This document shows, piece after piece, positions 15,050 to 64,000 of a stretch of DNA of 64,000 bases. Both the position numbers and the translations under genes were made by a program. The first letter of the stretch is position 1. Each line of letters starts with the position of its first letter. Under the pieces are notes generated by a model. The model saw only the letters and a program-made list of their open reading frames with translations. It was not told where the DNA came from and did no database searches. The DNA lies in assembly GCF_001625215.2 (NCBI RefSeq), contig NC_030387.2, positions 34,991,606 through 35,055,605 on the forward strand, read 5' to 3'. The DNA comes from Daucus carota subsp. sativus. Taxonomy: Eukaryota; Streptophyta; Magnoliopsida; Apiales; Apiaceae.

Positions 15050-16622
15050 CACATTTCTGACCAGTTTGAACGTAAAGTTTTCAAAACTAACCGACCTACG
15101 TTCAACTTTTCAAAACTAACCAGCCTAATTCTAAGGAAGTCGGGCGACCCCAACGGCGAGGTAAGAACACTAAGAGGTCGCCCCTTCCGTGAGCGACATG
15201 TGCTGCAGGGACATCAGGTATATTTCTTTCACTTTGTTGTCTTCAAAACTACTTTTGATATATTTTGTGCAAATTTCTTGATTTATTTTATCATTATTTG
15301 CTGCTTATTGTGCTTAGTCTTTTACTTCCTGACAAAATCTTGGCATATGAGTTGTTTTTAACCGAAATATAGTGAGGAATCTGGTTGTGATGATATTTGA
15401 ATATTATAATTCGAATATTTAATATTTGTAAATATTAAATAATAATATTTGTAAAAAAAATTCGGATATTCATAAATTTTGATTATAGCAATAATATTTG
15501 TAAATTCTGATTATAACAATAATATTTGTAAATTCCGATTACAACATATTATTTTACAAATATTTTCTCTTTTATTACGTAGAAAGACTAAGCAGTTTTT
15601 TGTTCGTTAATTCATATTATTACTCTTCTATTATTTTTAATATATTATTCTTTTGGATTATTATTTTTATTAATTCCGATTATTACATTTATTATTTTAA
15701 AATATTTTCATTTCTATTTTTGTTATAAATTACACTATTTTTCTAAAAAATTCCGATTATTACTTATATTATTTTACAAATATTAAATATTCGAATTATA
15801 TATACAAATAGGGTAAACATTATAAACAAAATTGAAAAAATAATATTTGAAAAAAAAGAAAATATTTGTAAAATAATATTGTTATAATCAGAATATACAA
15901 ATATTATTGTTATTATCGGAATTTACAAATATTATTGCTATAATCGGAATTTACAAATATTCGAATTTTTTTCTACAAAAATTATTGTTTAATATTTACA
16001 AATATTAAATATTCGAATTATATTTACATATAGGGTAAAAATAATAATAAATGAAATCGATAAAAAAGAGGAATCCGATTATATTTGCAAAAAAATTGTT
16101 ATAATCGGAATTTACAAATATTATTGTTATAATCGGAATTTACAAATATTATTTACAAATATTATAGTTATTAATTTACAAATATTTGTAAAATAATATA
16201 AGTAATAATGGAAATTTTTTAAAAATAGTTGAATTTAATGAAAAATAGAAATGAAAATATTTTTAAAATAAAAAAAAGTAATACTCGGAATTAACAAAAT
16301 TAATAATCAAAAAGAATAAAATATAAAAAATAATAGAAAATTAGTAAGAGTAATAATAGAAAACAAACTGATTTGCACATGTGTGATGAATGAGCTCACC
16401 AGTTCATGTTTCAGTTCATGGTAGGGGTCGCCTGTGTAAGGGGCGACCCTAACCCTCGTTCATAAATAGCACGGGTCGCCCGTGCTAGGGGCGACCCACT
16501 CTTCTTTTCCCCGATCAATTGGGGTCGCCCGACTTCCTTAGAATTAGGCTGGTTAGTTTTGAAAAGTTGAACATAGGCTGGTTAGTTTTGAAAACTTTAC
16601 GTTCAAACTGGTTAGAAATGTG
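15050..16622. mobile_element. Long foldback (inverted-repeat) transposon, 1.57 kb
   Basis: The left arm starts CACATTTCTGACCAGTTTGA and the right arm ends with its near reverse complement. Arms match for at least about 110 bp, including a repeated CAAAACTAACC box and the GTCGGGCGACCCC block. The AT-rich centre is itself largely palindromic: CCGATTATTAC and TACAAATATT words on the left reappear inverted on the right. There is no ORF. Just outside, a 24-bp imperfect direct repeat (GAGGGAGCCGAGGA then AGCTC, from 15029 and 16622) flanks the element and may be an unusual target-site duplication. The superfamily is uncertain. Confidence 0.75.
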
Positions 16623-19994: not shown

Positions 19995-20483
19995 TAATAT
20001 GTTAAGTTGTTTATCCTTTTTAAATAGGGATAATTAATTTATACGTCCTTGAACTTTGGTCCATTTTTGATTCGCATCCTTGAACTAAGTTTGTCAATTT
20101 ATGCATCCTCAAACTTTGTAAATTTCCAATTAAGGTCCTTCCGTCAGTTTTTGACTAACGGAAGTTAGTCAATTAGGGTTTTTAATTTGAGGGTTTTCGA
20201 TTCGTTCATGGATTGATGAAATTGATGGTATGGGAAGTTTCGGGAGATCAAACCGAACAGATTAATGTAGGTTTCAATGATGGAGGATTGCCGGAATGGT
20301 GGCAATGTCTCCGCTGGCCGGAAAATGGCCATTGATTCCGGCCATCATTCCGGCAATCCTCTGCCATTGAAACCTACATGAATCTCTTCGGTTTGACCTC
20401 CCGAAACTTCACATACCATCAATTTCAACAATTCATTAACGAGTCGAAAACCCCCAAATTCAAAACCCTAATTACTAACTTCT

Positions 20484-21033
20484 TGTTAGGTCCTATTAAT
20501 TCACTATATATAATAATATAGTGATCACAATATGTAATACAGTATGACAATATAAGAGATCGAAAGCAGTAAACTCTTATGTTCACAAAACTTGATGGTT
20601 ACAAAAACTCTCTCAGTGATTTATATTCTATCACCAAGAGCTGCTAGGGTTCTTAACAATATACTTGATAACTCAACTCATATAGAGTAACCCTAATCTG
20701 TGTTTATATAGACACAGTTACAAAATCAATCTCTGATTTGATATCCTATAAATCAGCTAATAAATCTATCAATCAAAGATTGCTCCAGTTTTCTGTTTAG
20801 TTTCCATAGTCAGCAAATCACTCCTCAGCTTCTATCCTTCCTTGAAGTATATCCGCTTCTGAGCTCTTTCCACGTGTAAACTCTGTCGAGTCTTGACTAT
20901 GTAAACTCTGATCAGACTTTATCAAACTCTGTCAGACTTTACTAAACTCTGATCAGCTTCCAGTTTAAACTCTGATGATTCCTGTTCTAAAACAAACCTT
21001 AAGAACATTAGTAATCATCAATTATATCTAACA
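20484..21033 (-). repeat. 3' LTR of the intact retrotransposon
   Basis: 550 bp, TG...CA ends (on the minus strand TGTTAGATAT ... GGACCTAACA). A minus-strand TATA box TATATAAA is at 20703-20710. Five AAACTCTG words lie at its U3 end. It matches the other LTR with no difference found by eye. Confidence 0.95.
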
Positions 21034-21045
21034 ATCTCCCCCAAC
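21034..21045 (-). other. Polypurine tract
   Basis: The minus strand reads GTTGGGGGAGAT immediately before the 3' LTR; it is the plus-strand primer. The same core is used by the element at 1-1653. Confidence 0.9.
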
Positions 21046-21161
21046 TTGTGCATGAATAAGTTATGTGCAAGTTAACAGATAATTGATGATGTCAAAACAT
21101 TTAAGTCAAATGCAACAGAGTTTAACTATATAACAGAAAACTTTTAAAACTTACAGATACT

Positions 21162-24100
21162 TTACTCCTTAGCTGCATAGATTCCATTTGCTGTCTTTAG
21201 ATACTCTCTGAGGAGTTCTTTCTCAGCTTCTTCAAGCACTGCAATCATTTGTCTCTTGATCTCTCTCAGCTCTGGATCTGAAACTCCAGTTTGATAAATT
21301 GCAGCTCTGAGATCATAAATCTTGTTCTTCTTCAAGTCCCTATCCAGCCTGATATTGTAAGCTTTATCAGACTCTTCATTAAATGCAAGAGTTCTGATTC
21401 CACCTATTGTTTCAATCTTTGCTGAATTTTTCTTCATCTCCACCAGCTGTCCTTTATGATTGAGGTATTTAGGAATGAAAGGTCCAGCATTTTTGTTTCC
21501 TGTAATCCCCATCTTTCTTCTGATTTGATCTTTTAGCAGGTTGGAGATGTGTTGTCCTGACTTGTTCTTTACTTGAAATATGTATGATACATATCTCAAT
21601 TCTTCCCAGTGTTTAGCATATAGATCTGCTTCAAGTACTCTAAACACTGTTCCATCAGACATGAAGTAGATAAGGATATTATCTCCTCTGTCATTTTTTA
21701 CCAACTGGACTGAATCAAGTTTGTCCATTCTGTCTTGCAATACTCCAGTCTTGGGAGCACAGAGAGATGAGGGGTCATCTGGTCTTGATCCTATACTCTG
21801 ATCAAATTTTTCATACTTGGATCCCAGCCCTCCTTTATCTCTTCCTGCCTTTTGATGAGAAAATGGTTTAATTGAGCCTTTTTCAAAACTTATTTCAGTC
21901 ATCAGAGTAGGCTTTGCAAATCCAGCCAGTGGAGTAGTTGTTGGTTTGAACACACCTTGAGCTTTGTCAGAGACTGTGTCTTTCTTTGCTTCCTTATTGA
22001 CTTGAGCTGTGTCAGAGGTCAATCTTTCTTTTTGAGGTTCTGCAACATGAGCTTTGTCAGAGATTGCAGCTTCTGTTTTCTTTTCCCTCACAACTTGATC
22101 CTTGTCAGAGGTTGTAGGCTTCTTCTTTTCCCAGCCTTTCTCCAGATTTTCATCTACTTTGCTTTTACCCTTGGAGGTGTATTCATCTTCAGAGTATACC
22201 TTTTTGACTGGTAAACTCTGATCAGCAACAGTAGATTCCTTGATCAGTATTCCTTTTTCTTTTGGCTTGGTAGTTGACTTTGCAGGCTTTTGGATCTTTC
22301 CAGAGTTTATGGCTTCAATATGTTCCTTTTTCAGCTCAGCTTCCTCTGCAGCAATCAACTCCAAATCCAAATTTGCTTCTGGATTTTCTTGTTCAAAAAC
22401 CAATCTAGCAAGCTCTTCATCAGTCATGGGTTTGTCTGATCCAGTCACTGGTCTTTGCTTAGATCCAGATGTGATGTTGTGAGTTGGACCAGACTTTGTG
22501 CTTTGCTTAGATTGTTTCTGACTGTCAGAGTTTGAAACTCTTCCACCAGTTCCTGCTTGAAATCTCTTGTGCTTTGTGAAGTCATCCACATCATCATCAT
22601 CATCATCATCCTTCTTCTTTCTCTTCAGAGTTTGATTAGTAGACTTGCATTTGACTTTAGCTACTCTCTCCCCCTTTTTGACATCATCCTCATCAGGTAT
22701 CAGAATTGATGTGATCAGAGAAAGTGAAGTTTGGATGGCTTCAAGCTGTTTGGACATCTTTTCTTGATTTGATTCAATCATGGTCATCCTTTGGTCCAGA
22801 GAGTCATTTGCAGTCACCAGCTTCTGTACATTTTCTTTCATAGGATTGATGGTCCTTTTCTTTTCCAGTTCATTTGTCTCCTTGACTTTTGCCACCTCTG
22901 TTCTTAGACCATCTATTGATTTAGATGTCTGGGCATGAGCAGGATGAAATGTCTTCAGATATAGAATTGTGCCCTTGAGGCTTGACATAACATCAGAGTT
23001 TGTAATTTTCTTTTCTGCCATAGATAAGAACTCTTCAGCTTTAGGTGTTTCCAAGGAATGCTGGTGACTCAACCAGAGTTTATCCCATACTTCAGTTGGA
23101 GGATCAACCTGAAGATCCCTGGGAAGTGGCTCAGAGTCTGTGTTCAGAGTTTGTAGCCTGGCATTGTACTGGCTAGTTGACTCCCATTTCTGTTGTGTCA
23201 GAGGAACTCCATCATTTTCATCCTTGGCAGTATCTGAACTGGCATCATCCTCAGTATCAGAGTTTGCTTTTTCATCTTCAGGAACAGGATCAGCAACTTT
23301 CTCCACATTATCCGGAGCAGATTTTTCTTGAGCTTCAGACTGTGACTTGATGGGCTTTTCACCAGTCTGAGCAAGAGATTGTAAAGCTTCCACAGCTACT
23401 TTGTCAGTTTCCTCAACTACATCAGACCTGTAGTTCTCTGGAGCTGTATCATGAACAATGGCATCCTCAGGAATTTTCATTGGAGATTGAGGAATTGGAC
23501 CATGATCAGATAATGGAGTTTGAGAATCAGACAAATTTGCTCCAGCTTCAGTTGTAGCTTGTGCATCACACTCTATTTCTTCATCTACTGCAGATGCTGT
23601 AGGAGATGCTTTAGGAGATGTTGTAGGAGATACTGTAGGAGATATCAGAGGAACAGCTTGAATAGGAAGCACCATCAGAGCTTGAGAAGTTTCTGGTAGT
23701 GTGGTAGATGGTGTTTGGTCTTCCTCAACAGTGAAGTCTGTGATGTCAGTTTCTGGGATTTTCGCCTTTGCAGGTTTTTGAGCCCGTAACTTGAATCTGG
23801 CTGTCTTCTGAGGACTTGTGTGAACCGGTTCAGAGACTGTTGTTGGAGTAGGTTCAGAGTTTGCAACTTGTGCAGTTTCTAGATCATCATATTCATATGC
23901 TGCAACAAGTCTTCTTCTTTTCTTCTGCTTTGGAGGAGAAGCAGCTTCATTGTGGACATTATCAGAGTTTGCAGCATCAGAGTTTGCTGTTTTATCAGAC
24001 TTTGTCTTTAGAACTTGTGTATCAACAGAGGTTCTGGTTTTGGTTGTAGAGGGTTGGTCATCAGACTTTGTAGATTTGGATGGTTTTGTAGTTGATGATC

Positions 24101-24968
24101 TTGGTTTTCTGGTGACTGTGGGAGAGGGTGGATGTTGTGGTTGAGGTTGTTGAGGCTGTTGTTGTGGTTCCTGAGGAAGGTTCAGCCTTGCTCTGAATGG
24201 AGCTGGGATTTGCAGAGGCCTGAGAACTGGTCTCTTCTCATCTTTAGATATGAGATCCTTAAAAGCCCTTTTATGAAGTTTAAAAGGTTTGATCTCATCT
24301 GCAGCATCAAAATCCACTTCTCCAACAGTGGCATTAAACAACAATTGGCAAAATCTTGAGAAATATATGACATTCCTGTTCTCAAGCATTCTTTCACCAA
24401 TATTTCTAAGAACTAATCTACCAAAATCAAAAGCAGTAGAATAGATCAGAGAATACCCGATCTGTAGCATGTCCATTGGAATAGCATCCCAGTTTGTAGA
24501 TTTCTTCTGGAAAGCTCTGGTAATGCAATCAAAGAAAAAACTCCACTCCTTATTGAGCCATGGACGCTTCAACTGACCCAGTTTATCCAGAGATTCGTAG
24601 TACCCCAATTCAAGCATCATTGTTCTGAGATTTGCATCTCCATTGGTAATGTACGCAGAATGTTCTGGCAAGTTGAGTGCCTGACGAACTGTTGCTGGAG
24701 TAACTGCATACTCCTCCCCGTCATAGGAAAACACAATTGATGGTGATCCATCTGCACCACCATTGTCATATGTACCCGACTTCCAAAAGCTGATGATTTG
24801 GCTTCCTGAAAGTCTTGCAGGAGCGGTGAGAGCGGTACCGATGGCACTTTGTGCCAAGAATCGCTGAAAGGGATGATAATCCCTTGGGGCTTCAGCAGTG
24901 TCAAGGATGGCTGCATAGTTATTAGGAACGAATTCAACACCTGCCAAGATAAAAGCTGTAGTGGCCAT
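21162..24968 (-). CDS. Accessory retrotransposon ORF downstream of pol, 1268 aa, function unknown
   Basis: A single uninterrupted frame between pol and the 3' LTR, on the same strand as gag and pol, starting at ATG 24968. Residues 1-265 look globular (FVPNNYAAILDTAE, PWLNKEWSFFFDCITRAF, GRLVLRNIGERM). A Gln/Pro run follows near 270-285. Residues about 290-1075 are charged, Ser/Thr-rich and mostly disordered-looking, with SPT-type repeats near 450, a predicted coiled segment at 700-765, an acidic run of seven Asp near 789 beside Lys/Arg clusters, and four SDKAQV-like repeats at about 950-1005. Residues 1080-1268 look folded again (DRGDNILIYFMSDGTVFRV, DQIRRKMGITGNKNAGPFIP). No signal peptide or membrane segment is visible, so it is not an obvious env-like protein. 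I do not recognise a named domain. The intact frame in a young element suggests recent selection. Confidence 0.85.
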   Translation of the reverse strand: MATTAFILAGVEFVPNNYAAILDTAEAPRDYHPFQRFLAQSAIGTALTAPARLSGSQIISFWKSGTYDNGGADGSPSIVFSYDGEEYAVTPATVRQALNLPEHSAYITNGDANLRTMMLELGYYESLDKLGQLKRPWLNKEWSFFFDCITRAFQKKSTNWDAIPMDMLQIGYSLIYSTAFDFGRLVLRNIGERMLENRNVIYFSRFCQLLFNATVGEVDFDAADEIKPFKLHKRAFKDLISKDEKRPVLRPLQIPAPFRARLNLPQEPQQQPQQPQPQHPPSPTVTRKPRSSTTKPSKSTKSDDQPSTTKTRTSVDTQVLKTKSDKTANSDAANSDNVHNEAASPPKQKKRRRLVAAYEYDDLETAQVANSEPTPTTVSEPVHTSPQKTARFKLRAQKPAKAKIPETDITDFTVEEDQTPSTTLPETSQALMVLPIQAVPLISPTVSPTTSPKASPTASAVDEEIECDAQATTEAGANLSDSQTPLSDHGPIPQSPMKIPEDAIVHDTAPENYRSDVVEETDKVAVEALQSLAQTGEKPIKSQSEAQEKSAPDNVEKVADPVPEDEKANSDTEDDASSDTAKDENDGVPLTQQKWESTSQYNARLQTLNTDSEPLPRDLQVDPPTEVWDKLWLSHQHSLETPKAEEFLSMAEKKITNSDVMSSLKGTILYLKTFHPAHAQTSKSIDGLRTEVAKVKETNELEKKRTINPMKENVQKLVTANDSLDQRMTMIESNQEKMSKQLEAIQTSLSLITSILIPDEDDVKKGERVAKVKCKSTNQTLKRKKKDDDDDDDVDDFTKHKRFQAGTGGRVSNSDSQKQSKQSTKSGPTHNITSGSKQRPVTGSDKPMTDEELARLVFEQENPEANLDLELIAAEEAELKKEHIEAINSGKIQKPAKSTTKPKEKGILIKESTVADQSLPVKKVYSEDEYTSKGKSKVDENLEKGWEKKKPTTSDKDQVVREKKTEAAISDKAHVAEPQKERLTSDTAQVNKEAKKDTVSDKAQGVFKPTTTPLAGFAKPTLMTEISFEKGSIKPFSHQKAGRDKGGLGSKYEKFDQSIGSRPDDPSSLCAPKTGVLQDRMDKLDSVQLVKNDRGDNILIYFMSDGTVFRVLEADLYAKHWEELRYVSYIFQVKNKSGQHISNLLKDQIRRKMGITGNKNAGPFIPKYLNHKGQLVEMKKNSAKIETIGGIRTLAFNEESDKAYNIRLDRDLKKNKIYDLRAAIYQTGVSDPELREIKRQMIAVLEEAEKELLREYLKTANGIYAAKE

Positions 24969-26329
24969 TAGAACAGAGATTATGAAAAGAAGATGTTTGA
25001 GGAAGTGTGTAGACGAAGATTTGAATTTCAGAGAACAGAGTGTAAGAGTTTTGTTTAGAAGGTGAATGTAGAGAGTAAGTGTAAAATTGAATAATGAGCA
25101 ATAAAATCTGATCTGAAAAACTCTTCAGATTTTGTTGAACTGAGCACGCATGGGCTTTTTGTTCAATCAGACACCTGTCAAAATGTAACTGGTAGATGAG
25201 TGTTAGTGGGATGGAGAAACGAGAGTAATAATCATGAGTGCAGTAAAACATGCGCAGTAATAAATGCTGATTACACGTTCTCCTATTAAAATGTTTTGCA
25301 TGTAAACCCACTAATAATACATCCGTTTGAAACACATTCTCTACACATTCTCTGAATATTTGAAAAAAATCAAGATCAAATCTCTCGAATTTTTAAACTC
25401 TGAGATTTAAGACAAAGAAAATAAATTTCTGCGAACCTCAGAATAAAGACATAATTTTCAGAATATTCATCAATAAATCAGAGTTTGTTCTAAAATCCAT
25501 AGCTCAGAGTTTGTGTGGTCATGTTAAATCAGAGAATATAAAATTTCACAATTTCGTAATTATAAGGTAGACTTTGAATAATTTATTCAAACTCTCAAAA
25601 CTTAGACTAGGACATACTCTGAAGATAATCAATAAAATAATCTACCCTTTTTTTTTTTTTTTTTTTGTGCAGGACGCTTCTCAGTGTGAGTGAGGCACGA
25701 CCTTTAAATATACTATTGCATTAGTATTTCTCCAGTAATCAGAGATTGTGACTGGTCACCATAGATTATAAAATCTTAGCAATTACTTAATACCAGCAAA
25801 TGTTTGGTTCTTCCCAGTCACTGTCATATTAACATCTAAGATCTCAAAGGAGTACCATGCTTATTTTTCAGGGGGTTTTGTCTCAGGTAATAAAAACATC
25901 AGAGTTTATAATCACTGTCTAGTATATGAGAGAAAATTTAAATTAATCAGTCTCACTTATAATTAAGATATGTGAAGTAATAGAGTCTCAATGATATCAG
26001 CATGCATAGTGTGAACTAGTGTAGCACAAAATTGAGATCAGGATTAAGGAACTTAGCTGAGATTCATGATTACTCATTCAGAACATGCTTCATGGTATCT
26101 TCATAGGTGTTTTGTCTCAGAGAAGATAAAAATGAGATCACTTATCAAGATTCAGAGTTTTATAAGCATCAGAGAATATTATCAGAGAATGTTATCAGAG
26201 TAAAGCAAACAGAGTATATTATCAGAGAATGTCATCAGATTTTATCAATCAGAGTATATCATGGCAGATGTGTGAGTAATACATATGGTAAATTTGACAA
26301 GTTAAATTTTAAAGATCTAACCAATATGT
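24969..26329 (-). other. Non-coding spacer between pol and the accessory ORF
   Basis: 1.36 kb with no long sense ORF. It contains a 20-bp A run on the sense strand (25648-25667) and a dense cluster of CAGAG words on the plus strand (26150-26260, TCAGAGAAT/CAGAGTATAT). It may carry a promoter, splice acceptor or readthrough context for the accessory ORF, but no such signal could be proved. Confidence 0.55.
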
Positions 26330-29300
26330 TTACTCAGTTCCTGATATCATTCCTAGCTCATTCACCAGCCTAGTAAAAGTTGCTTCACTTAATGGCTTGG
26401 TGAAAATGTCTGCTAGCTGCTGTTCAGTAGGAACAAAGTGAAGTTCAATGGTTCCTTCCTCCACATGCTCCCTTATAAAATGATATCTTATACTGATGTG
26501 CTTTGTCAGAGAATGTTGAACTGGATTTCCTGTCATAGCAATAGCACTTTGGTTATCACAATAAATAGGAATTTTAGAGAAGGATAACCCATAGTCCAAC
26601 AGTTGATTCTTCATCCAAAGAATTTGAGCACAACAGCTGCCTGCAGCAATATACTCTGATTCTGCTGTTGATGTTGAGATGGACTTCTGCTTCTTACTGT
26701 ACCAAGAAACTAGTCTTCCACCCAGAAATTGACAACTCCCACTTGTGCTTTTCCTGTCAATTTTGCAACCTGCAAAATCTGCATCAGAGTATCCAATAAG
26801 ACTAAAATCTGATTCTCTAGGGTACCATAGTCCCAATGATGTGGTTCCCTTGAGATATCTGAATATCCTCTTTACTGCAATCAGATGAGGTTCTCTTGGA
26901 TCTGCCTGAAATCTTGCACATAGACATGTGGCATACATAATGTCTGGTCTACTTGCAGTCAGATAAAGCAATGATCCAATCATTCCTCTATAGTTTGTGA
27001 TATCCACTGATGCACCAGTATCTTTGTCTAGTTTTGTTGCTGTTGCCATAGGAGTAGTTGCAGCAGAACTGTCTTGCATACCAAATTTCTTTAAAAGATT
27101 TCTGGTATACTTGGCTTGATTTATAAAAATCCCATCTTCAGTCTGTTCAACTTGTAAACCCAGAAAATAACTGAGTTCCCCCATCATGCTCATTTGGTAC
27201 CTAGACTGCATGAGCTTGGCAAATCTTTGACAGAGTTTAGCATTAGTGGAGCCAAAAATAATGTCATCAACATAGATTTGAACTAAAAGCAGATCATTAC
27301 CATGATTCAAATAAAACAGAGTTTTATCTATGGTACCTCTAGTAAATCCACTTTCAAGAAGAAATTGAGCTAGAGTTTCATACCATGCCCTTGGAGCCTG
27401 CTTTAGTCCATAAAGTGCTTTGTCCAACCTGTAGACATAGTCTGGATGTTTTGGATCCACAAAACCTGGAGGTTGTTCAACATATACCTCTTCATCCAGT
27501 TTCCCATTTAGAAAAGCACTTTTGACATCCATCTGAAATACTTTGAATTTCTTGTGTGCAGCATAGGCCAGAAAGATTCTAATTGCCTCCAATCTTGCAA
27601 CTGGAGCAAATGTCTCATCATAATCAATACCTTCCTGTTGTGAATACCCTTTTGCCACAAGCCTTGCTTTATTCCTTGTAATGACACCCTCACTGTCAGT
27701 TTTGTTTCTGAACACCCATTTTGCACCAACTATGGATCTGTCTTTAGGTCTTGGTACTAGGGTCCAGACTTTATTTCTTTCAAATTCATTTAACTCTTCT
27801 TGCATTGCTTGAATCCAATCAGGATCTTGAAGAGCTTCCTCCACCTTTTTGGGTTCTGTTTGTGACAGAAAGCAATGATGTAAACATTCATTTGCTGTAG
27901 CTGTCCTTGTTTGCACACCTGCTTCTGGATTGCCAATTATTAAATCAGGTGTGTGAGATTTTGTCCACTTCCTAGCATGTGGAAGCTGACCATTTTCATC
28001 ATTGGATCCTCCCCCTTGATCCATGCTCTCCTGATTCTGTTGATCATTCTCTGTAGCTCCCCCTAAGTCTGTGCTATCAGAGTTTGAATCAGTATTCTCT
28101 GATGAGTTTAAGTCAGCATTCTCTGATGAGGCTTGGGTAGAGTCTGAAACATTCTGATGCTCCCCCTCAGCAATTGCTTCATCATCATGAACTTGTGAAT
28201 TTTTACTAGAGTTTGCTGTATTTTGTTCACAGTCAGAGTTTGACTGTTCATCAGAGTTTGTTGAATCAGAGAATATTTCTTCATTTTCAAAATGCAGTTC
28301 TTCATGTTCATCCATATCAGCTAAGCCCATAATTCTTTTGTCATCAAATGACACATGTATGGATTCCATGATGACCTTGGTTCTCAGATTATAGACTCTG
28401 AAGGCCTTTGTTATCAGAGGATAACCTACAAAAATACCTTCATCAGCTTTTAAATCAAACTTGGTAAGCTGTTCTGAATGAGTCTTCAATACAAAGCATT
28501 TGCACCCAAATATATGAAAATACTTCAGATTTGGCTTCTTCTTCTTCACCATCTCATATGGGGTTTTGCCAAGCTTATTAATCAAGGTTGCATTTTGAGT
28601 GAAACAAGCTGTTTGAACAGCTTCTGCCCAGAAATAAGTGGGCAATTTAGCCTCATCAAGCATAGTTCTGGCAGCTTCTATAAGAGTTCTGTTTTTCCTT
28701 TCAACTACACCATTTTGCTGTGGTGTACCAGGTGCAGAGAACTGTTGCACTACACCTCTTTCTTTGCAGAACTCTTCCATTGTTGAATTTCTAAACTCAG
28801 TTCCATTATCACTTCTAATGATTTTCACTTTGTCTTCAGATCCATGATCCAGTTGTGTCACATGATCCATCAGATGCAAGGCTGTTTCATCTTTAGAGTG
28901 AAGAAAATATACCCAAGTGTATCTAGTATACTCATCAACAATGACAAGAGCATATTTCTTCCTTGCAATGGATGGTACATTGACTGGTCCAAATAGATCA
29001 ACATGTAGAAGATGATATGGTTTGTTTATTGAGAATTCAGTCTTACTCTTGAAAGATGTCTTTCTCTGCTTGGCTTTTTGACATGAATCACACAATCCAT
29101 CAGATGTCAGTAGTGATTCAGGGAGTCCTCTCACAAGCTTTTTCTTTATAAGCTCATTTATGGAATTGAAATTTAGATGTGAAAGCTTCTTGTGCCATTT
29201 CCAACTTTCTTCTGCAGAGATCCTTGTAGACAAGCAAATTGCTTTTTCTTCAGAGTTTGTAGGCAAGTGGATTTCATAAATATTCCCATGTCTGTGAGCA

Positions 29301-29617
29301 GTTACTGCCACTTTGCCTGTTGACTTGCTTACTATCTCACTGTGTTCTTCATAGAAATCAACATGATATCCTCTGTCACAGATCTGACTGACAGAGAGTA
29401 AATTGTGTTTCAGCCCTTGAACAAGAGCTACATTTGATATGATGACATTTCCAAGATTGATTTTGCCATATCCCAGAGTCCTTCCTATGTTGCCATCTCC
29501 ATAAGAAACACTTGGGCCAGCCTTCTCCACAAACTCTGACAGCAGGGTCTTATTTCCAGTCATGTGTCCTGAACATCCACTGTCCAAGACTAGGATATTC
29601 TTCCTGTTGCCCTGCAA
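26330..29617 (-). CDS. pol: Copia pol polyprotein: protease, integrase, reverse transcriptase, RNase H
   Basis: 1095 codons of continuous frame. Domains in order: retropepsin with LDSGCSGHM (about residues 10-20, a Cys form of the usual DSGA); the gag-pre-integrase zinc finger (HKKLSHL ... CDSCQKAK, about 140-182); the integrase core with [17 protein letters not shown] and the Glu of NGVVERKNR (DDE triad, about 205-310); reverse transcriptase with [19 protein letters not shown] and YVDDIIFG (near 782); and RNase H with [17 protein letters not shown] and IYCDNQSA. It is in the same frame as gag but separated by three stops, and its first codon in this ORF is TTG, so it is probably expressed only as a gag-pol product. 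All catalytic motifs look intact. Confidence 0.95.
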
Positions 29618-29860
29618 TCATAAAGACCACTAGTTGTTAGTTTTAAGGACCCAGACTTGCTTGGATCCCTTGGCCTTATTAAGTTTGTTAGCTTTTGCAG
29701 CGGTATTATTATCAGAGTTTGAGCTAACAGACTTTGCAACAGAGTTTGTACTGGAAACAGAGTTTGTAATTGCAGAGTTTTTATTAACCTTTAAAGAAGG
29801 TTTCAATTGATAATAATCATAATACAAACTATGATATTCTTTGCAAGTATAAATAGAATG
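29618..29860 (-). pseudogene. gag-pol junction, same frame, interrupted by stops
   Basis: The gag frame continues unshifted into pol but meets TGA (29861-29863), TAG (29630-29632) and TGA (29618-29620). The intervening 66 codons are coding-like (Ser/Asn/Lys-rich, ending near WVLKTNN). Frame arithmetic from 31858 to 29617 is a multiple of three, so no frameshift is involved. Confidence 0.8.
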
Positions 29861-31858
29861 TCATAAACTACCACAATGAAAACAAGGATCTTGTGGTTTA
29901 TATCTAATACTACTTTTTCTAACTCCAGACTTTGTAGGTAAAGAGTTAATGTCCTTGTTCTTCCTGCAAAAATTAGCAAGATGATTAGTATTACCACAGT
30001 TATGGCATGTCTTCCTAGGTGCATTTGGAACAGGCATGTAGTTATTACTCTTGTCTATGCCAATTTTGCCATTTCTATTTTTCCTAGGCTCCTTGTTTCT
30101 GTCATCAGACTTTACCTCTTTAAGCTTATGTTTAAGCTGTTTCTGAGTCATCAGTCCTATGTTAACCTGTTTGGGCTTTTCAGATTTTAAATTGTTGTTA
30201 ATCTCTGATTTTGGTCTACATTGTTTAGGCTTAGAGGATTCAACAACAAATTTAACAGGTTTAACCTTAGGTTTTTGAGTTTTAATAAACTCTGTTTTTG
30301 ATGACTCAGCTTCTGAGTTATCAGTGTAACCTAGTCCCTTCTTCCAGTTTCCACTACCTAAGATATCCTGAGTAGTTTTGCCTGAATTAGTCCATGTTTT
30401 AATGATCTCTCTTTCCTTGGCAAGTTCTGATTGAAGAGATGCATACCTCTCTAATAATTCATCTTTGACAATGACAGCATCATCTCTTTCTTTTTGAACT
30501 TCCAACATTTGAACTAATTCTTTTTCTAGAAAATCATTCCTTTTCTTTACACTCAGAGTTTCAGATTTTAATCTTTCATTCTCTAAAGTCTGATCTCTAA
30601 AACTGATATGTAAAGTTTTAAGAAACAATCTTAACTCAGTTATATCTTCAGTATCAAAGGCAAGAGTAGAGTGAGGTACCTTAGCAGGAGTTTCAGTGTT
30701 GTTGTCAGTGTTTGCCATTAGAGCATAATTGACTTCTTCTTCTGAATCAGATGTATCTGTCGAGTTTCCTTTCTTGGTGATAAAGGCTTTTTCTTTTTCC
30801 TTCTTGGCTTTCTTGCATTCAGATGCAAAGTGTCCCTTTTCACCACAGTTGAAACAGGTATACTTGTCAGCTTTTCCAGCTTTTCCTTCTTTGCCCTCAT
30901 TCTTCTTAAAGTTTTTCTTGTCATAAACTCTGTCAGAGTTTCTGTCTTTCCTTGAAAAACTTTTGCCTTTGTTGAACTTTTTGTAGGCCAACTTCTTGAA
31001 GCTCTTCACCATCAATGCTGCTAACTGCATCATCTCATCATCACTTTCTTCAGAGTCTGAGGGAACATCAGAGTTTGAGTCATCAGAGTTTGATGTCTCA
31101 ATGTCAGACTTTGTGACATGAGCTTTTCCCTTGCTCTTAGCAGCTTCCTCTTGAACTTTCAGAGCAACAGACTTTGATTTTCCTCCATGTCGTTTGCTCC
31201 TCTGTTCCATCTCAAGTTCATGAGTCTTCAGTCTTCCATAAACATCATCAAGAGACATTTCTCCAAGATCAAGATTGTCTCTTATTGTAGTGACTTTCAA
31301 ATCCCATTTTTCAGGAAGAGCTAGAAGGAATTTGAGGTTTGAGTCTTCAAGATCATATTCCTTGTCCACCAGAGATAAGTCATTCAGCAGTTTGACAAAT
31401 CTGTCATACAGATCTGTCAGGGACTCACCAGATTTTGAGTCAAAGTGCTCATACTCCTGTGTAAGGATTGTTTTTCTGTTTTTCTTAATGGCCTGAGTTC
31501 CTTGACATCTGGTCTCCAGAGCATCCCAGATTTGTTTAGCAGTTTTGCACCCAATCACCCTATTAGACATTGCATTATCAAGGGCACTATGCAACAGATG
31601 CTTCACCTTTGCATCTTTACTGATAGATGAGATGTCCTCTGGAGTATAATCTTTCTTTTCTTTTGGAACCATCTTTTGAGGTTCATCTGCAATCCCAACA
31701 GAGAGCTTGGTGGGCATATGTGGTCCATCATAAATCCGGTCAAGGTATTCTGGATCAACAGAGTCTAAGAATATGATCATTCTTTCTTTCCAGACTGGAT
31801 ATTCAGATGCCTTAAGGGTTGGGACTCTAAAGGATGAAGCTTGTGATTTTTCAGACAT
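29861..31858 (-). CDS. gag: Copia gag polyprotein (665 aa) with CCHC zinc knuckles
   Basis: Starts at ATG 31858, just inside the primer-binding site. The N-terminal half is the copia gag/UBN2-type domain (YPVWKERMIIFLDS, IWDALETRCQGT, LYDRFVKLLNDLS). Two CX2CX4HX4C knuckles are complete: CFNCGEKGHFASEC (near 339) and CHNCGNTNHLANFC (near 619). A third begins (CFHC) and is cut by a TGA at 29861-29863; the same frame continues past the stop with the His and Cys needed to finish the knuckle. Asn-Ser-Asp repeats encoded by AACTCTGA recur. The product would form the virus-like particle in the cytoplasm. Confidence 0.92.
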   Translation of the reverse strand: MSEKSQASSFRVPTLKASEYPVWKERMIIFLDSVDPEYLDRIYDGPHMPTKLSVGIADEPQKMVPKEKKDYTPEDISSISKDAKVKHLLHSALDNAMSNRVIGCKTAKQIWDALETRCQGTQAIKKNRKTILTQEYEHFDSKSGESLTDLYDRFVKLLNDLSLVDKEYDLEDSNLKFLLALPEKWDLKVTTIRDNLDLGEMSLDDVYGRLKTHELEMEQRSKRHGGKSKSVALKVQEEAAKSKGKAHVTKSDIETSNSDDSNSDVPSDSEESDDEMMQLAALMVKSFKKLAYKKFNKGKSFSRKDRNSDRVYDKKNFKKNEGKEGKAGKADKYTCFNCGEKGHFASECKKAKKEKEKAFITKKGNSTDTSDSEEEVNYALMANTDNNTETPAKVPHSTLAFDTEDITELRLFLKTLHISFRDQTLENERLKSETLSVKKRNDFLEKELVQMLEVQKERDDAVIVKDELLERYASLQSELAKEREIIKTWTNSGKTTQDILGSGNWKKGLGYTDNSEAESSKTEFIKTQKPKVKPVKFVVESSKPKQCRPKSEINNNLKSEKPKQVNIGLMTQKQLKHKLKEVKSDDRNKEPRKNRNGKIGIDKSNNYMPVPNAPRKTCHNCGNTNHLANFCRKNKDINSLPTKSGVRKSSIRYKPQDPCFHCGSL

Positions 31859-31900
31859 GATTGTGTTTAAGATCTCACTGTAGTAATCTTAACAGAGCTG

Positions 31901-31912
31901 GCTCTGATACCA
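31901..31912 (-). other. Primer-binding site for initiator tRNA-Met
   Basis: The minus strand reads TGGTATCAGAGC, complementary to the 3' end of plant initiator methionine tRNA, two bases inside the 5' LTR. This primes minus-strand DNA synthesis and is standard for copia elements. Confidence 0.95.
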
Positions 31913-31914
31913 CT

Positions 31915-32464
31915 TGTTAGGTCCTATTAATTCACTATATATAATAATATAGTGATCACAATATGTAATACAGTATGACAATATAAGAGATCGAAAGCAG
32001 TAAACTCTTATGTTCACAAAACTTGATGGTTACAAAAACTCTCTCAGTGATTTATATTCTATCACCAAGAGCTGCTAGGGTTCTTAACAATATACTTGAT
32101 AACTCAACTCATATAGAGTAACCCTAATCTGTGTTTATATAGACACAGTTACAAAATCAATCTCTGATTTGATATCCTATAAATCAGCTAATAAATCTAT
32201 CAATCAAAGATTGCTCCAGTTTTCTGTTTAGTTTCCATAGTCAGCAAATCACTCCTCAGCTTCTATCCTTCCTTGAAGTATATCCGCTTCTGAGCTCTTT
32301 CCACGTGTAAACTCTGTCGAGTCTTGACTATGTAAACTCTGATCAGACTTTATCAAACTCTGTCAGACTTTACTAAACTCTGATCAGCTTCCAGTTTAAA
32401 CTCTGATGATTCCTGTTCTAAAACAAACCTTAAGAACATTAGTAATCATCAATTATATCTAACA
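31915..32464 (-). repeat. 5' LTR of the intact retrotransposon
   Basis: 550 bp, identical by eye to 20484-21033 at a constant offset of 11,431 bp. It should carry the promoter; the TATA box is at 32134-32141 on the minus strand. Confidence 0.95.
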
Positions 32465-32611
32465 CTTCTGTTAGTCAAAAACTGACGGAGGGACCTGAAT
32501 TGGAAATTTACAAAGTTTGAGGATGCATAAATTGACAAACTTAGTTCAAGGATGCGAATCAAAAATGGACCAAAGTTCAAGGACGTATAAATTAATTATC
32601 CCTTTTAAATA

Positions 32612-53227: not shown

Positions 53228-53835
53228 AATATGATTCAAAGGTCTAATTTCTTTTTATCAAACCTTTAACTTTTAAATATGACCAATATATGATGACCAT
53301 GTTTAGAGAAAATATAATAACTATAAAAAAATTATATAACTTTATAATTATTAGTGGATAGTCGGACGTGGTTACATAGTTTCACTAATAACAAACCTCC
53401 TTTTCTATTAATTAACTAAAAATATATATTTTTATACATCATACATTAATTATATATGGAAAATCTAATAGAATTTATAGCAACTATATTTATTTAAGTA
53501 AAAGAAAATTTTAGAATAATAATATATATCGTGACTAATTTTGAATAATTATGTATCAATCTTATTATATATTTTCAGTATATGATAGTTTTTTTGTGAA
53601 TAAAATTAAAAAATAATTTTGTCATTTCTTCCTTATGTGATTATAAATATCTTAATATGTGGTTTTTTTTAATCTTATTTCTCGTCGGCCCCGTTTTCAT
53701 CTTCTTTCATTCCTCTCCCTTTTCTCTGGAATACTCCGCCCTTCCTCTCTTCATCTTTACCAAATTACCTTCAATATATCAAATATAGGCTCAATACCAC
53801 TGTCACTAACAAAAAAAATGATCTAAAAATGATAA
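53228..53835 (+). repeat. Dispersed direct repeat, copy 1 (at least 608 bp)
   Basis: Starting with AATATGATTCAAAGG, this stretch is nearly the same as 63344-64000 in the same orientation. Differences are a (TA)n expansion and a short duplication in copy 2. It has no long ORF; its right part has a CT-rich, leader-like segment (53690-53770). The end is not defined because copy 2 runs out of the window. The class is unknown. Confidence 0.85.
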
Positions 53836-63343: not shown

Positions 63344-63558
63344 AATATGATTCAAAGGTCTAATTTCTTTTTATCAAACCTTTAACTTTTAAATATGACC
63401 AATATATGATGACCATGTTTAGAGAAAATATAATAACTATAAAAAACTTATATCACTTTATAATTTATAATTACTAGTGGATATAATTACTAGTGGATAG
63501 TCGGACGTGGTTACATAGTTTCACTAATAACAAACCTCTTTTTCTATTAATTAACTAA

Positions 63559-63605
<47 letters not shown>

Positions 63606-64000
63606 CATCACACATTAATAATATATGGAAAATCTAATAGAATTTATAGCCACTATATTTATTTAAGTAAAAGAAAATTTTAGAATAATAATATATATCG
63701 TGACTAATTTTGAATAATTAAGTATCAATCTTATTATATATTTTCAGTATATGATAGTTTTTTTGTGAATAAAATTAAAAAATAATTCTGTCATTTCTTC
63801 CTTATGTGATTATAAATATCTTAATATGTGTTTTTTTATCATATTTTTCGTCGGCCCCTTTTCATCTTCTTTCATTCCTCTTTCTCCTTCTCTAATACTC
63901 CGCCCTTCCTCTCTCCATCTTTACCAAATTACCTTCAATATATCAAATATAGCCTCAATACCACAGTCACTAACAAAAAAAAATGATCTAGAAATGATAA
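63344..64000 (+). repeat. Dispersed direct repeat, copy 2 (runs off the window)
   Basis: Near-identical to 53228-53835 in the same orientation. It has an expanded (TA)n run at about 63563-63601 and a short duplication of AATTACTAGTGGATA (63469-63499) absent from copy 1. It begins a few bases after the transporter frame loses similarity. Confidence 0.85.

Follow-up and report, generated by a model that had tools for sequence, protein, structure and literature searches.

What does the long open reading frame (ORF) do that lies between pol and the 3' long terminal repeat (LTR) of a SIRE/Sirevirus-type Ty1/copia element in carrot? The element spans 12 kb (20484..32464, sense on the minus strand) of the window analysed here, a stretch of 64,000 nucleotides from Daucus carota subsp. 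sativus (contig NC_030387.2, positions 34,991,606 to 35,055,605), to which all coordinates below refer. Its accessory ORF (21162..24968, minus strand) is complete from ATG to stop with 1268 codons and runs in the same direction as gag and pol, so that the intact sense ORF described in an earlier note, made from the sequence alone, is confirmed in its coordinates, start, stop and direction. By its place it is an eORF-3'F, a kind of Sirevirus gene classically termed env-like and described with membrane segments. We tentatively propose that it encodes a nuclear, element-specific DNA-binding protein that would act like VANC of VANDAL transposons.

The gene is kept open across many copies. Our search of the carrot genome (441 Mb, 11 contigs) yielded 36 copies matching residues 1-1268, 34 of them stop-free and two with one TAG; with only 37 of 5198 first-look candidates scored, the true number is at least this, and the sample favours the closest copies. 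Without the two TAG copies, a near group of 23 and a far group of 11 copies were compared by the ratio of nonsynonymous to synonymous substitution rates (dN/dS, Nei-Gojobori). Between the groups this ratio is 0.30 for the whole ORF and 0.13, 0.47, 0.17, 0.27 and 0.17 for residues 1-255, 256-600, 601-800, 801-1020 and 1021-1268, respectively, and within the near group it is 0.29 overall and 0.19, 0.44, 0.20, 0.75 and 0.22 for the same segments. Against a neutral expectation of ~3.5-3.7 nonsynonymous changes per synonymous one, private changes number 16 nonsynonymous to 30 synonymous in the N-terminal domain (p 4e-10) and 12 to 20 in the C-terminal domain (p 5e-7), and those in the linker region of the ORF do not depart from neutral (p 0.18); in all these statistics copy pairs are non-independent, and constraint may be overstated by the preference for intact copies. 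That the accessory ORF is an intact gene under purifying selection is practically certain. The earlier note had suspected that the ORF is used and had named a neutral dN/dS among copies beforehand as the refuting outcome; the values are not neutral, and its suspicion gains support.

A protein search returned 92 relatives at E<=0.01, of which the three best, annotated in Daucus carota, are 83-84% identical across the whole ORF. Full-length relatives are present in Heracleum and Apium at 31-38% identity, and a partial match in Orobanche hederae covers 38% of the query. Pfam and PDB sequence searches gave nothing above cut-off, PDB profile searches only low-complexity or chance matches (e.g., capsid proteins in the linker, Crl), and a scan of viral contigs no relative; no host domain was found in the ORF, and the suggestion that it was captured from the host gains no support. 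Several gene models among the relatives call for separate comment. Host-type names and domains on some of them look like the product of fused models: P0086, P0106, P0125, P0169 and P0182, whose names are FLO11-like, KNR4/SMI1 homolog, nucleolin 2-like, SAC3 family protein and glycolipid transfer protein, contain ORF fragments that are likely misannotations or fusions. A PF04195 match in P0014 was read as lying beyond the C-terminus of the ORF, where the gene model runs on, and the celery models P0057 and P0088 join pol (RVT_2) directly to the accessory ORF. P0221, an ORF fragment with 67% identity on a 776-base contig labelled Klebsiella pneumoniae, is probably a plant sequence within a bacterial assembly.

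With the six nearest (P0001-P0006) omitted, 52 relatives of 1050-1420 amino acids show high identity to the ORF at residues 1-240 and fair to high identity at ~1041-1268; residues 721-800 and 841-920 are intermediate, and from 281 to 600 identity is low. The domain layout, as predicted by modelling, begins with an N-terminal domain at residues 1-260 (24189..24968, minus strand like all parts of the ORF), obtained from 42 sequences with a predicted local distance difference test score (pLDDT) of 88 and a predicted template modelling score of 0.86. The prediction for residues 590-1268 from 41 sequences (mean pLDDT 57) shows a long helix at about 658-756 (22701..22997), which we read as a coiled coil, and an ordered C-terminal domain at about 1077-1265 (21174..21740; ten-residue blocks at pLDDT 57-88) whose first part is weakly chromoshadow-like, with disorder between. 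Prediction thus backs the two folded-looking ends that had been picked out from the sequence and adds a third ordered part, the helix, that had been overlooked. Between the N-terminal domain and the helix, the basic stretch KKRRRLVA (residues 349-356, 23901..23924) is a candidate nuclear localisation signal, and a pattern of this type recurs in 43 of the 58 relatives of 1050-1420 amino acids. A simple scan of hydropathy showed no membrane segment: the highest 19-residue mean is 1.38, and a mean of at least 1.6 is reached in 4 of these 58 relatives. The carrot ORF in this respect departs from the classical description of env-like genes, and the earlier claim that it lacks env-like features holds for membrane segments; it does not hold for position and coiled coil, which are those of the Sirevirus env-like class (PMC3414828, drawn on, like all papers cited here, in excerpts).

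The best fold match of the predicted N-terminal domain is the DNA-binding region of VANC21, and we consider it probable, on support that falls short of proof, that the domain shares the VANC fold. Foldseek comparisons with PDB and viral models gave nothing at E<=0.001. DUF1985, the sequence domain of VANC, is absent from the Pfam families of the ORF, and none was found among the families shown for its alignment members (25 of 27, 15 of 15 and 25 of 37 families for 42, 32 and 41 members). A third protein search, aimed at VANC/DUF1985 proteins, had none among the matches listed (best 120 of 126) and retrieved a more distant N-domain lineage at 33-42% identity.

Should the protein act like VANC, a dense short target would be expected in its own element. 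The non-coding linker between pol and the ORF (24969..26329, minus strand, 1361 nt) holds CTCTGA/TCAGAG 16 times against 1.5 expected from dinucleotide shuffles, and no hexamer rose above 12 in 300 such shuffles; A6/T6 is equally frequent there, largely as one A tract. When the word defined in the linker is looked for elsewhere against a background of the 52-kb flanks, it occurs 4 times in the LTR (0.23 expected), 26 times in the ORF (1.6), 13 times in pol (1.4) and 7 times in gag (0.85), and no other hexamer is as enriched across the whole element (68 vs 5.1). Each of 25 2-kb flank tiles has at most two sites and the 1-kb tiles of the element have 1-13, though two of these 25 tiles, taken as a control, contain another hexamer whose enrichment (log10 p -24 and -45) is beyond that of the word in the linker (-17). 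Under synonymous-codon shuffling with amino acids fixed, sense sites remain in excess in the ORF (21 vs a mean of 3.8), in pol (8 vs 1.2) and in gag (6 vs 2.1, with 6 reached in a fraction of 0.012 of the shuffles), and antisense sites are in slight excess in the ORF and pol but not in gag. Sense sites outnumber antisense ones in the coding parts and the linker, and all four LTR sites lie on the other strand. The sites have the consensus YAWWCTCTGAT in common. At the protein level, the Asn-Ser-Asp and SDKAQV-like repeats of the ORF are partly the CTCTGA word translated, and enrichment of [NT]SD exceeds z = 3 in the ORF itself and in 4 of the 9 relatives tested.

The word is also found beyond this copy and its closest kin. 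In a carrot subfamily with ~36% ORF identity the top hexamer is again CTCTGA, with 36 sites against 2.7 expected in L044, 28 against 2.7 in L045 and 17 against 1.3 in L046, where the 1.9 kb upstream holds 15; as exceptions, the word is outside the top six in the 1.5 kb upstream in L045 and ranks 93rd in the first 1 kb of the L046 ORF. Site density is maintained while positions turn over: the ORF of L044 has 24 sites and that of the window copy 26, but of 23 that can be aligned only 5 coincide, and 3 of 23 do so in L045. In the 1.4 kb upstream of the ORF in 36 near-family copies, motif bases are variable in 10 of 96 columns against 343 of 1267 others (p 1.5e-4), a comparison slightly biased toward conservation since sites were defined in the window copy; the eight bases flanking each site are variable in 71 of 233 columns, and the word's variability is below that of each of 29 frequent hexamers with little overlap to it. 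Four members of the distant N-domain lineage (P0197, P0199, P0201 and P0203), at 35-42% identity, carry [NTIAV]PD repeats in place of xSD, at 5-13 against ~1 expected (P0203: 13 [NTIAV]-Pro-Asp vs 1.0), and P0211 is without enrichment. Such repeats would arise from the word by a single base change, and the protein sequences lead one to predict for that lineage a DNA word akin to CTCTGA but not identical with it.

The VANC21-like predicted fold and the element-wide DNA motif both lend support to the early suggestion of a nucleic-acid-binding or chromatin-targeting protein. VANC21 binds YAGTATTAY, which is dense and in one orientation mainly in the non-coding parts of VANDAL21, and strips methylation element-wide, and VANC6 reads a different word (PMC5735166). 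The carrot protein is like VANC21 and VANC6 in being an accessory transposon protein with conserved domains and variable, repeat-rich regions, with VANC as its best fold match; in both cases a short word is densely repeated in non-coding DNA of the encoding element. It is unlike them in that it is carried by a copia LTR retrotransposon and not by a VANDAL Mutator-like DNA transposon, and its word differs from YAGTATTAY and fills coding regions too. We propose that the protein, presumably located in the nucleus, would recognise ~YAWWCTCTGAT through its N-terminal domain wherever it is repeated in LTRs, linker and coding regions, that the coiled coil would mediate oligomerisation on the dense sites and that the C-terminal domain would contact chromatin or a partner. 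Bound protein might then keep RNA-directed DNA methylation and silent chromatin off the element's own copies and so make transcription possible. That the protein binds the CTCTGA array is, in our estimate, an even call; the mechanism as a whole is our best explanation but falls somewhat short of even odds, and its anti-silencing outcome is a shade more doubtful still.

The array might instead be the target of a host transcription factor, or an enhancer or boundary, with the ORF engaged in something unrelated such as particle assembly or chaperoning. The LTR sites and those 5' of the ORF lie where promoters are expected, the repeated motifs of Sireviruses were compared with stress-factor sites (PMC2829016), and it is by inference that we match word and protein. 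This last point weighs against our proposal, as does the methylation of sunflower SIRE elements, where CG methylation is reduced between the LTRs and CHG methylation is still high (PMC12844716), a poor fit because VANC21 acts more on non-CG sites. A promoter signal, however, needs neither 26 sites in the ORF plus 20 across gag and pol nor a turnover of positions at constant density, and we regard a host factor as unlikely, if a serious contender. That the word is kept for the sake of the Asn-Ser-Asp repeats in disordered linkers, or as a sense-strand RNA signal, would agree with the many sites encoding xSD, the [NT]SD enrichment and the preponderance of sense sites in coding parts and linker. 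We find it improbable in view of an excess that survives synonymous shuffling, sites in other frames, the density of the word and the conservation of its bases in the non-coding linker, and the LTR sites on the other strand.

Other readings grant the protein a different role or none. It could be a tether for integration or nuclear targeting, docking the pre-integration complex on chromatin or on copies of its own element via the N-terminal domain or the chromoshadow-like C-terminal part; we set aside a firm chromoshadow assignment as scores are too low and many unrelated folds score alike, the Pfam families displayed for 41 scanned members (25 of 37) include no chromo or chromoshadow model, and a tether appears distinctly unlikely. 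A true envelope-like or movement protein at membranes, for which location after pol and coiled coil would speak as in Sirevirus env-like genes (PMC3414828), is very improbable given the hydropathy of the ORF and all but four of 58 relatives, the frequent KRRRLV-type basic pattern and a predicted fold that is DNA-binding-like. Finally, that the ORF is a functionless captured gene, in decay or carried along passively, might be suspected from the weakly constrained long linker (dN/dS 0.44-0.47), but strong purifying selection on the three ordered parts refutes it in the main and full-length conservation in Heracleum and Apium argues the same way, leaving it hardly credible.

Our proposal would matter beyond this copy. 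eORF-3'F genes occur in 74% of SIRE elements and form 19 groups with little mutual similarity (PMC6317226), and the carrot ORF is like them in place and sense, copia context, coiled coil and high divergence. Rather speculatively, Sirevirus env-like genes may be sequence-specific self-recognition factors in which a VANC-type domain, common to DNA transposons and LTR elements, is paired with a lineage-specific word written element-wide, proteins included; word and protein would co-evolve, and for this reason the genes would look unrelated between lineages. The repeated motifs of Sireviruses (RM boxes) are found in the LTRs and, where an env-like gene is present, also in the linker, 77 of the 79 copies there being upstream of that gene; four elements without env have none in the linker (PMC2829016). 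This link would be explained if the env-like gene is VANC-like. The carrot word likewise lies in the LTRs and in the linker upstream of a gene in env-like position; RM boxes are palindromic and all but one have a CGG-CCG core, whereas CTCTGA is non-palindromic. If the proposal is true, a gene long termed envelope-like would be a self-recognising anti-silencing factor, and anti-silencing by self-recognition would extend beyond Mutator-like transposons to a large plant retrotransposon lineage. In the open-licence literature we found no paper tying Sirevirus env-like genes to VANC or anti-silencing, and the excerpts of PMC9324142, PMC7385966, PMC12844716 and PMC13317346 make no such tie. For one env-like gene, the present case establishes selection and offers a candidate fold together with a concrete candidate target, which turns the question into a binding experiment.

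Accessory proteins of other plant LTR elements offer looser parallels. Athila ORF (PF03078) and Transposase_32 (PF20167), called related (PMC11728184), belong to gypsy elements, unlike the carrot copia element; matches to them in the N-terminal stretch, seen in 1 of 42 and 2 of 32 relatives, stay below curated cut-offs. Retand ORFs with TRP28 combine a predicted DNA-binding accessory protein and short tandem repeats in one element (PMC11963269), a likeness by description only, and differ in being antisense and of gypsy lineage.

The element itself is flanked by the target-site duplication CTTCT (20479..20483 and 32465..32469), and its 5' LTR (31915..32464) and 3' LTR (20484..21033; four TCAGAG and five CAGAGTTT sites), both on the minus strand, are identical over 550 bp; a blastn match of 552 bp at 100% includes two bases of the duplication. 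On the same strand follow gag (29861..31858; Retrotran_gag_2 and two CCHC zinc knuckles) and pol (26330..29617), with integrase before reverse transcriptase, so that copia gag and Ty1/copia order are both present by Pfam. Sireviruses are recognised by a long intervening sequence with the primer binding site TATCAGAGC at the 5' LTR junction (ATTGG, AGTGG in six elements) and by the terminal polypurine tract AGGGGGAG, AT and then the TG of the 3' LTR (PMC2829016). Here, AGTGGTATCAGAGC (31901..31914, minus strand) immediately follows the 5' LTR, and the tract TGGGGGAG (21036..21043, minus strand), followed by AT and the 3' LTR, agrees as TGGGGGAG-AT-TG in 11 of 12 bases, the mismatch being the first. 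We place the element with the SIRE/Sireviruses because its domain order, primer binding site junction and polypurine tract fit these rules. Two further Sirevirus traits are lacking: the last 0.5 kb has only the terminal copy of the tract and no cluster of identical ones, with AGGGGGAG elsewhere in the element at 22675, 28016, 28064 and 28167, and palindromic CGG-CCG LTR repeats are absent, with a single CGG/CCG in the LTR and another in the linker. The palindromic motif is known from 13 elements of the set surveyed, one without the CGG-CCG core (PMC2829016).

The linker includes a pyrimidine-rich leader without another ATG in the last 182 nt before the ORF. SIRE1 reportedly expresses its env-like gene by stop-codon suppression, whereas in the carrot element pol and the ORF are 1361 nt apart; the SIRE1 protein was set against the carrot ORF by description only. 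Splicing was set aside as a route of ORF expression, and TTTTTCAG occurs in the last 250 nt 5' of the ATG in 34 of 36 copies. The gag and pol genes share one frame, with three in-frame stops between the zinc-knuckle region and the protease motif (29549-29950, minus strand) that occur despite identical LTRs and may be either copy damage or a family trait. Elsewhere in the window, direct repeats of ~0.6 kb with 88% identity (53228-53835 and 63344-64000) are perhaps the LTRs of an older element cut by the window end, and positions 15405-16338 contain AT-rich 28-bp tandem units and inverted repeats of ~160-170 bp.

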